Shown here in pieces: positions 49,073-50,590 of a DNA stretch of 64,000 nucleotides. Location: contig NZ_JAUOQT010000003.1 in NCBI RefSeq assembly GCF_030547245.1, forward strand, positions 434,001-498,000. The letters run 5' to 3'. How positions within the stretch are numbered: position 1 is the first letter of the stretch; the number at the start of each line of letters is the position of its first letter. Both the position numbers and the translations under genes were made by a program. The DNA comes from Oceanihabitans sp. 2_MG-2023. GTDB taxonomy: Bacteria > Bacteroidota > Bacteroidia > Flavobacteriales > Flavobacteriaceae. The notes beneath the pieces were generated by a model. That model worked only from the letters and a program-made list of their open reading frames with translations. It was not told the DNA's origin and searched no databases.

Positions 49073-49184
49073 CATTATTCCCAAATAAAAAAATATGTTT
49101 GATTATTCCATAAAAAAGGAATATATTTGATTATCACTCAATAAAGCGATAATTTTAATTATCACATAATAAGATGATAAATCA
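49073..49184 (+). repeat. Four 28-bp tandem repeats with palindromic cores: operator array
   Basis: Four 28-bp units start at 49073, 49101, 49129 and 49157, each beginning with ATTAT after one variable base. Units 2-4 hold palindromes TATTCC/GGAATA (49104-49123), TTATC/GATAA (49131-49152) and TTATCA/TGATAA (49159-49180), with centres at 113.5, 141.5 and 169.5 past 49000. Unit 1 keeps only the left half. The array covers the promoter of the next gene and ends at its first ATG. Confidence 0.8.
49099..49129 (+). promoter_or_regulatory. Promoter of satD inside the operator array
   Basis: TTG (49099-49101), a 20-bp spacer and TATATTTG (49122-49129): a full housekeeping match. The first full palindrome (49104-49123) fills the spacer, an ideal repressor site. 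A second -7-like box, TATGTTTG, lies exactly 28 bp upstream. Confidence 0.85.
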
Positions 49185-49219
49185 TGTTATCTCTTAAAAG
49201 AGAACAAAAATCAAAACAA

Positions 49220-49834
49220 ATGACAAGTATACTTACAGGGGATATTATCAAATCCCGCGGACAAAAAAATCCAGAGATTTGGCTTAGTCAATTAAAAGAG
49301 AGTCTATCGTATTTAGAACCAAACAATAAACACTGGGAAATTTATCGTGGAGACAGTTTTCAAATAGAAATTAAAGATGCTTTTAAAAGTTTTGAAGCTG
49401 CTATTTATATAAAAGCAGCAATTAAAATGATAAAAGGATTAGACGTTAGATTGGCTATTGGCATTGGCGAAAAAACATATCAAGGTAACGATGTAACAGA
49501 ATCTAATGGCGAAGCCTTTATTTTTTCTGGGGAAACTTTTGAGACTTTAAAAAAGGAAAAACAAAATTTAAAAATTAAAACAAAATCGGAAATACTTAAT
49601 AAGGAGTTGAATCTATATTTTAAACTAGCACTAATTAGTATGGATCATTGGACAGTCAATTCGGCAGAAATTGTTAAATTAACTTTAGAAAACCCGAAAG
49701 CATTACAAGAAGATTTAGGAAAAACAATTGGCATTAACCAAAACGCTATTAGCACTAGGCAAAAACGTGCCAATTTGGAAGAAATTTTAGCATTAAATGG
49801 CATGTTTAAGAAAAAAATAAACAGTTTAATATGA
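49220..49834 (+). CDS. SatD-family protein with cyclase-like domain and C-terminal HTH
   Basis: A 204-residue protein. The ATG at 49220 gives the usual MTSILTGDIIKSRG start; one at 49184 would add twelve residues. The order TGDIIKSR, YRGDSFQIEI, a long helix and LDVRLAIGIGE copies the metal and nucleotide strands of class III nucleotide cyclases in a shortened form; this reading is my inference. Near the C-terminus LQEDLGKTIGINQNAISTRQKRA has the pattern of a helix-turn-helix. It overlaps the DUF3307 gene by 4 bp (ATGA). The promoter lies in four 28-bp repeats, so self-repression is likely. Confidence 0.85.
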   Translation: MTSILTGDIIKSRGQKNPEIWLSQLKESLSYLEPNNKHWEIYRGDSFQIEIKDAFKSFEAAIYIKAAIKMIKGLDVRLAIGIGEKTYQGNDVTESNGEAFIFSGETFETLKKEKQNLKIKTKSEILNKELNLYFKLALISMDHWTVNSAEIVKLTLENPKALQEDLGKTIGINQNAISTRQKRANLEEILALNGMFKKKINSLI

Positions 49835-50535
49835 TACTACTTATTAAACTTTTATTGGCTCACTTTATTGGTGATTTCTTTTTGCAACCAGAAAAATGGG
49901 TAAAAGATAAAGAAGTAAAAAAACTAAAATCTCCAAAATTATATTTGCACATATTGATACATGTGCTATTACTTTTTATACTTCTTTGGGATTTTACACT
50001 TTGGTCAATCGTACTAATTATTGGTATTTCGCACTTTATTATTGATGCAACTAAACTTAGCATTCAAAAGAAGAAAACAAAACGATTACTTTTCTTTATT
50101 GACCAAGTTCTACATATTATGGTAATATTAATTACCTATTTTGTTTATACCAATTCAAAAATAGATTTTAAAGTACTTCTTTTAGAAGAAAACCTTCTTT
50201 TAATAACCTGTTTGGCATTTTTAACGCAACCAGTTGCTATACTAATGAAAATCCTTTTTACAAAATGGGATATTTCAAAACTTACAAAAGGGAATGAATC
50301 TTTAAAAGATGCAGGAAAATATATTGGTATTTTAGAACGTATTTTAGTGTTCACCTTTATTGTAGCAGACCATTGGGAAGCTGTTGGTTTTTTAATCACA
50401 GCAAAATCTGTATTTAGATTTGGGGATCTTAAAGAGTCTAAACACCGAAAACTTACTGAGTATATATTAATTGGTACGTTAATTAGCTTTGGTATTGCTA
50501 TATTAACTGGGCTCGTTTTTAAAATAGCCTTATAA
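49831..50535 (+). CDS. DUF3307 multi-pass membrane protein
   Basis: A 234-residue inner-membrane protein with six or seven helices. Polar pairs lie in or next to the membrane segments: His11 and Asp15 (HFIGDFFLQ), His40 and His44, His68 and Asp72 (SHFIIDATK), Asp91 and His95 (DQVLHI), plus the late GILERILVF and KSVFRFGDLK segments. The spacing (HxxxD) is reminiscent of intramembrane metal enzymes. Translation is coupled to satD through an ATGA overlap. Biochemical role unknown. Confidence 0.88.
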   Translation: MILLIKLLLAHFIGDFFLQPEKWVKDKEVKKLKSPKLYLHILIHVLLLFILLWDFTLWSIVLIIGISHFIIDATKLSIQKKKTKRLLFFIDQVLHIMVILITYFVYTNSKIDFKVLLLEENLLLITCLAFLTQPVAILMKILFTKWDISKLTKGNESLKDAGKYIGILERILVFTFIVADHWEAVGFLITAKSVFRFGDLKESKHRKLTEYILIGTLISFGIAILTGLVFKIAL

Positions 50536-50576
50536 CAAAAAAGAGAAGCTGCTAAACAACTTCTCTTTTTTGTTAT
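50532..50576. terminator. Bidirectional terminator between DUF3307 gene and carB
   Basis: A 17-bp stem (ATAACAAAAAAGAGAAG pairing with CTTCTCTTTTTTGTTAT) with an 11-nt loop, flanked by A and T tracts, between convergent genes. Confidence 0.93.
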
Positions 50577-50590
50577 AAACTACAATATTA

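Follow-up and report, generated by a model that had tools for sequence, protein, structure and literature searches.

A SatD-like gene and the gene for a DUF3307 membrane protein form a closed two-gene operon in a 64,000-nucleotide stretch of DNA from Oceanihabitans sp. 2_MG-2023 (NZ_JAUOQT010000003.1, positions 434,001 to 498,000), referred to as a whole as the window. We lean slightly towards reading the pair as an autoregulated, nucleotide-responsive regulator that controls a membrane effector. The two-gene module is widespread, occurring in Bacteria and Archaea. The analysis describes how two families of unknown function are built, and its new elements are an unnamed membrane domain, defined here as the real partner of SatD, and a readable operator code. 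The two genes are as follows:

49184..49834, + strand: SatD-like regulator gene, 216 amino acids (aa); alignment of 72 relatives; AlphaFold2 predicted local distance difference test (pLDDT) 94.2, predicted template modelling score (pTM) 0.90
49831..50535, + strand: DUF3307 membrane protein gene, 234 aa; PF11750 E 7.9e-31; AlphaFold2 pLDDT 91.2

The conserved start of the SatD-like protein is probably Met13, at 49220. The start of the DUF3307 gene and the stop of the SatD-like gene share the sequence ATGA, and an overlap of 4 base pairs (bp) between satD and the partner gene was found in 74 of 186 pairs.

From this overlap the first-pass annotation had proposed one two-gene system consisting of a regulator and a membrane protein, and a survey of co-occurrence bore out the linkage. 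DUF3307 matches were present in 77 of the 296 genomes of a phylum sample and SatD-like profile matches in 92, with 73 of the 77 DUF3307 genomes carrying both. The SatD-like gene lay directly upstream on the same strand in 72/75 DUF3307 loci of the sample, and was paired in 80/80 loci of a separate collection scan. The locus set leaves out L001 (a duplicate of the window), L066 (split in two open reading frames), G104 and G119; the DUF3307-carrying loci were retrieved through DUF3307, and their share among SatD loci is by construction. The pair was also carried by 11/11 full-length plasmid loci from Gamma- and Alphaproteobacteria, Bacteroidota, Fusobacteria and haloarchaea (E. coli, Klebsiella, Enterobacter, Vibrio, Pseudomonas, Haloplanus, Sphingomonas, Fusobacterium, Segatella, Salinivibrio and Pseudoalteromonas). 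One plasmid-labelled record, from Fusobacterium vincentii (L180, 2.1 Mb), is of chromosome size, which is probably a matter of labelling. In E. coli pEC34A (L173, 3770 bp) and in Klebsiella plasmids of 3770 and 4424 bp, the pair makes up most of the non-replication cargo and the membrane protein is longer (332 aa); E. coli chromosomes held no DNA relative of the plasmid pair.

The membrane protein consists of two parts, which behave differently with respect to SatD:

49831..50166, + strand: N-domain, residues 1-112, four helices carrying H11, D15, Q19, H40, H68, D72, D91, Q92 and H95; alignment and AlphaFold2 model
50278..50532, + strand: C-domain, residues 150-234, three helices with GxxERxL ... 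AKSxxRF ... EYxxIGTLxS; alignment and model; unnamed in Pfam

Genes for SatD without DUF3307 were taken from 22 profile matches (E <= 5e-6, no adjacent PF11750), from which G046:C11, G203:C50 and weaker partial matches were excluded, leaving 20; one of the loci, L200, ends at a contig end. A C-domain match followed directly after 17 of these 20 genes; it formed either a short protein by itself (104-137 aa, with one open reading frame of 69 aa) or the C-terminal part of a protein with another N-terminal membrane domain. Plasmids of Agrobacterium, Arthrobacter and Sphingomonas parapaucimobilis likewise have a C-domain after SatD. The idea of an orphan SatD was accordingly dropped, as 17 of the 20 supposed orphans have a C-domain partner. 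Overall, the C-domain stands next to 185 of 189 SatD genes; in one more case it is split by a frameshift, and it is missing from three, of which one lies at a contig end. The C-domain is therefore the constant partner of SatD, and the N-terminal module is swappable or absent. Two loci have a third gene immediately after the C-domain gene (L201:2332-3660 and L202:4990-6321); its product of about 442 aa carries a membrane segment at the N-terminus and could be a further effector.

Loss of SatD left a trace in the same domain. Three long DUF3307 proteins (L060, L064 and L067) occur in genomes with no SatD match anywhere; relatives of L064 and L067 carry thiH-like, thiF-like, satD and DUF3307 genes, of which satD is gone in these two. 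Of 17 conserved C-domain positions, 9, 4 and 4 are altered in the three proteins, whereas 71 paired proteins average 0.18 deviations, with a maximum of 5 that comes from the L051 partner, frameshifted at its end; at 13 conserved N-domain positions the three deviate 1, 0 and 0 times. L064 and L067 are relatives, and the Fisher test on these counts ignores relatedness. Erosion of the C-domain with retention of the N-domain suggests mutual dependence between SatD and the C-domain, with the His/Asp domain independent of SatD. DUF3307 itself had earlier been taken as the element coupled to SatD: the gene linkage stands, while the SatD-coupled part proved to be the C-terminal domain, which that description did not contain.

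The upstream gene had been called satD at the outset. The window protein is too divergent for a direct match to Pfam SatD (PF16264), giving none over the cut-off, and is joined to the family through intermediates: 34 of the 61 members of relative set A2 match PF16264 at E <= 0.1 (best 2.9e-13), as do the SatD proteins of L188 (E 3.8e-28; SatD profile E 1.5e-23) and L201 (E 4.3e-18). Because intermediates match and the window protein does not, we name it SatD-like. Foldseek matched its model to a GGDEF domain (6eib, E 6e-4) and to the adenylyl cyclase Ma1120 (E 1e-3, probability 1.00), and VIA comparisons matched it to GTP cyclohydrolase III (Z 9.7, root-mean-square deviation (rmsd) 3.2, 113 aligned), GGDEF (Z 9.7, rmsd 2.9, 123 aligned) and the cyclase OaPAC (Z 9.6, rmsd 3.9, 143 aligned). 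By sequence, the family profile also found Ma1120 (E 0.0012); their alignment, which stops before the transition-state Asn/Arg region, pairs TGDIxxS with FTDIEEST and RGDSFQ with QGDGF. Where GGDEF domains have GG[DE]EF, the window protein has RGDSF and some relatives LGDEF. As modelled, the SatD-like protein combines a palm fold of class III cyclase/GGDEF type, in which both metal-binding aspartates are present, with a helix-turn-helix, and its cyclase-type pocket may bind a nucleotide together with a metal:

49241..49243, + strand: Asp20, first metal-binding aspartate (TGDIxxS), 72/72; aligned to Ma1120
49352..49354, + strand: Asp57, second metal-binding aspartate (RGDSFQ, at the GGDEF-loop position), 72/72; aligned to Ma1120
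49706..49783, + strand: helix-turn-helix of SatD, residues 175-200, with recognition-helix residues 187, 188 and 191; Sigma70_r4/HTH matches in family members

Both aspartates are present in 187 of 189 SatD genes, the exceptions being L187, whose first motif is unreadable in the open reading frame used, and L185. The SatD-like gene of the latter (L185:3926-4552) has no partner, has both aspartates replaced (by K and N) and retains an apparently intact helix-turn-helix.

Upstream of the SatD-like gene lies a repeated element that is very probably bound by SatD itself, as judged from sequence patterns and covariation:

49074..49185, no strand: four tandem 28-bp units, putative operator array of the SatD-like gene; sequence pattern
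49076-49095 (4/6 pairs), 49104-49123 (6/6), 49132-49151 (5/6) and 49160-49179 (5/6), no strand: palindromes TATnnn-N8-nnnATA, with an exact 28-bp period
49122..49129, + strand: TATATTTG, inside the array; read from the sequence

The last of these resembles the Bacteroidota -7 promoter element, TAnnTTTG; a sigma-70 promoter scan (13 found against 10.0 expected) was uninformative. The two-unit tandem pattern matched nowhere else in the 3.69-Mb genome. A perfect palindrome was found in 95 of 152 Bacteroidota satD upstream regions (36/72 and 59/80), against about 2.75 in shuffled controls, which do not preserve relatedness; spacers of 2-16 other than 8 gave 0-5 of the 152, and other genes in the same loci had the palindrome in 22 of 672 cases. 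In loci L076-L155, 120 of 142 palindrome copies sit at satD. Adjacent copies show a spacing of 28 or 29 bp in 84 of 96 instances. The three inner bases of each arm vary by species, and their best predictors are SatD columns 191, 187, 188 and 179 (z 9.8, 8.3, 6.7 and 5.4; mutual information over 51 representatives of less than 75% identity), which lie in the recognition helix and just ahead of it. Other SatD columns, used as an internal control, had mean z values of 2.75 (residues 175-200) and 1.38 (residues 13-150). The TATnnn-N8-nnnATA operator was absent from 15 viral or plasmid loci and from 20 loci without DUF3307, which indicates that the code belongs to the Bacteroidota branch alone. The operator array and the covariation of the recognition helix uphold the proposed logic of a regulator with a membrane protein; of the sensor-repressor suggested for the SatD-like protein, the regulator stands, and the sensor domain has turned out to be a palm of nucleotidyl-cyclase type.

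The DUF3307 domain of the membrane protein was matched by PF11750 over residues 3-120 (E 7.9e-31, 107.2 bits against a gathering cut-off of 23). The first-pass annotation had drawn attention to His/Asp pairs in or beside its membrane segments and to His44. H11, D15, Q19, H40, H68, D72, Q92 and H95 are invariant in 74/74 homologues, and remain so in a 58-row alignment reaching down to 28% identity; D91 (72/74), K75 (72/74) and K27 (66/74) are nearly so. The pairs are thus conserved far beyond chance in these alignments, and the exception is His44, which varies (65/74). In an AlphaFold2 model built from 77 sequences (mean pLDDT 91.2, pTM 0.73), the conserved residues lie, as had been proposed, in or beside helices (2-17, 35-52, 55-78 and 84-107). 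Fourteen viral contigs (L159-L172) encode short stand-alone DUF3307 proteins (family phrog_2470) that consist of the His/Asp domain alone, with neither C-domain nor SatD in 14/14. In these, H11, D15, Q19, K27, H68, D72, D91, Q92 and H95 are kept in all 14 and H40 in 13; Lys75, like His44 (2/14), is not kept across them. The His/Asp/Gln site is probably metal-binding and enzymatic. It is unlikely that the cluster is a structural element or a proton or ion path, and neither enzyme nor metal site: solved structures and Pfam enzyme families give no match, in keeping with that explanation, but the four helices carry some ten invariant H/D/Q/K residues, which the phage stand-alone versions retain and which resemble an active site.

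Searches with the membrane protein against the PDB gave no match with E < 0.001 for the model and none for the sequence profile. The best VIA row had Z 6.1; the UbiA-type structures 8j8k and 7bpu (Z 5.9 and 4.8) and MraY (Z 4.4) were within helical-protein noise, and the likeness to the UbiA prenyltransferase fold of 8j8k (rmsd 4.5, 92 aligned) is a weak helical one, below the helical-bundle noise of the tool. These weak structural matches do not establish a new fold for the membrane protein. In BFVD, the clear matches (probability 0.99-1.00, rows 1-6) were exclusively phage proteins named DUF3307 or unnamed viral proteins. Searches of an open-access library turned up no paper that assigns a function to DUF3307 or describes a fold of SatD in its title or in the opening of its abstract.

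In the mechanism that we prefer, SatD, with its palm and helix-turn-helix, would bind the tandem operators over its own promoter and repress the operon, and its cyclase-type pocket would bind a nucleotide with a metal and report the nucleotide state. The membrane effector would be tied functionally to SatD through its C-terminal three-helix domain, perhaps by direct coupling, and its DUF3307 N-domain would contribute an intramembrane His/Asp/Gln site that probably binds metal and has enzymatic activity. On a change in the nucleotide signal SatD would let go; repression of the operon would end, and the effector, no longer held back, would act on the membrane, possibly harming or remodelling the cell. 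Repression rather than activation is our supposition here. In the transposon studies compared in PMC11323703, satD of S. pyogenes proved essential although it is an accessory gene (178/249), which would fit a restrained effector if satD there has the same partner. The apparent paradox becomes a simple test, namely whether satD is dispensable once its partner is removed. The 3.77-kb plasmids also point to a restrained, potentially harmful effector, as do a Sphingomonas insulae plasmid (L179), in which the pair is flanked by ThsB and PycC/PycTM, and an Enterobacter kobei plasmid (L175), in which it is downstream of and beside GajB. The loss of both aspartates in the partnerless SatD of L185 counts in favour of the mechanism as well.

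Several observations weigh against this mechanism. In Bacteroidota (Flavobacteriaceae and Chryseobacterium), the pair occupies stable chromosomal positions with few defence neighbours. The long DUF3307 proteins of L060, L064 and L067 survive without SatD and are therefore not lethal alone in those genomes, though their C-domain is altered. The phage stand-alone domain keeps the His/Asp site without SatD. A second SatD-like gene in one genome (L204:4067-4711) has intact aspartates and no C-domain partner. The parts of the module are now clear enough for testing, and its role may lie in defence, toxicity or metabolism.

The first two of these observations bear on ordinary regulation of the envelope or metabolism, in which SatD would set the level of a beneficial membrane enzyme according to nucleotide or acid stress, with neither toxicity nor defence; we regard this as a real possibility, though one we would sooner doubt than accept. 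Beyond the SatD/DUF3307 partner, no neighbour was constant across the loci read. Going by gene names taken mostly from reading the sequences, the pair is flanked by a thioesterase-like gene and carB in relatives of the window, precedes purC-purF-like genes in Chryseobacterium and adjoins helicase- and ligase-like genes in Pedobacter. In the window, the operon ends ahead of a convergent carB-like gene:

50531..50577, no strand: terminator-like stem-loop at the end of the operon, with a 20-pair stem (called on the - strand) that is near-symmetric in sequence; sequence

A chromosomal neighbour scan covered 148 of 221 neighbours in 45 loci (120-700 aa, randomly chosen, no control set). The family table was headed by E1-E2 models (6 members), which we take to be thiF-like neighbours, helicases (3) and type I methyltransferases (2). 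A chromosomal defence-island setting was rejected, enrichment among the 148 being weak, and PADLOC matched neither window protein to any defence family. Stable positions, few defence neighbours and retention of long DUF3307 proteins without SatD are what a metabolic role would lead one to expect. So is the setting of some phage stand-alone genes: among 85 of 106 phage neighbours scanned, thymidylate synthase accounted for 3, and a dCTP deaminase, an adenylosuccinate-synthetase-like enzyme and a nicotinamide phosphoribosyltransferase occurred once each. This proximity is a weak hint that the chemistry of DUF3307 may concern nucleotides or their sugars. A tblastn search of the phage records with the window protein found no match, and a viral scan with SatD of L188 found no relative. 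A metabolic role agrees less well with the patchy distribution (77/296 genomes), the presence of the pair on tiny 3.77-kb and defence-rich plasmids, the accessory but essential satD described for S. pyogenes, and the many partners without any DUF3307 domain.

The minimal partners of 104-111 aa raise a further possibility, a toxin-antitoxin module in which the C-domain protein would act as a small membrane toxin and SatD as its autorepressing antitoxin. Overlapping genes with the regulator first, the operator array and the essential accessory satD of S. pyogenes agree with such an arrangement. We nevertheless find it rather unlikely, since SatD is a folded protein of 200 aa with a nucleotide fold, the partner survives without SatD in L060, L064 and L067, and toxicity of the partner would itself have to be supposed.

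Less likely again, in our estimate, is that SatD is an active nucleotidyl cyclase whose small signal holds the effector off, as in Panoptes, or on, as in Pycsar, with the helix-turn-helix setting the dose. Degenerate GGDEF-type domains are often mere nucleotide binders; in addition, the partner model is all helices without a soluble ligand-binding domain, and some partners have just 104-111 aa, all of which speaks against a cyclase. What speaks for it is the cyclase-type fold of SatD, the presence of both metal aspartates in all SatD genes except one that is partnerless and one without a readable first motif, and the position of the pair between ThsB and PycC/PycTM on the Sphingomonas plasmid and beside GajB on the Enterobacter plasmid. 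The essential though accessory satD reported for S. pyogenes is likewise expected if loss of SatD frees the effector. A parallel is offered by Panoptes, for which PMC12657218 describes colony inhibition by OptE alone and rescue only by catalytically intact OptS. In the most far-reaching reading, which we consider doubtful, the module would be a cyclase-guarded membrane immunity of a third kind, present in Bacteria and Archaea, in which a palm-helix-turn-helix protein that regulates itself senses or makes a nucleotide signal that silences a C-domain effector with swappable N-terminal enzyme modules; phage DUF3307 might be a decoy or serve the phage's own nucleotide economy.

Among the known systems compared with the pair is SatD (PF16264) of the S. 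mutans sat operon. The overall SatD architecture is common to the intermediates L188 and L201, while the window protein has no PF16264 match; the passages of the literature at hand label SatD an acid-tolerance protein and give neither fold nor operator. Panoptes (OptS/OptE) is also a two-gene operon of a small palm-domain protein and a membrane protein, but OptS is a minimal polymerase of Cas10 type and OptE has a soluble ligand-binding domain, whereas the window partner is modelled as all-helical; the term 'helix-turn-helix' is absent from the text of the Panoptes paper (PMC12657218). Pycsar (PycC/PycTM) shares a class III cyclase with a membrane effector, and a Pycsar pair adjoins one SatD/DUF3307 locus, but the window pair has no PADLOC match to PycC or PycTM. 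The SatD/DUF3307 pair does not have the defining features of Panoptes or of Pycsar. The phage stand-alone DUF3307 proteins of phrog_2470 share the same His/Asp domain and have no C-domain or SatD in 14/14. With class III nucleotidyl cyclases and GGDEF diguanylate cyclases, the SatD-like protein has the fold and both metal aspartates in common; it differs in being short, fused to a helix-turn-helix and equipped with RGDSF in place of GGDEF. Regulators of the CdaR/PucR type combine a degenerate GGDEF-like domain with a helix-turn-helix, and one Foldseek row for the SatD-like model, 3onq, is presumably such a regulator. SatD shares this make-up of GGDEF-like sensor and helix-turn-helix, but differs from these regulators in that both metal aspartates are retained and its membrane partner is fixed.
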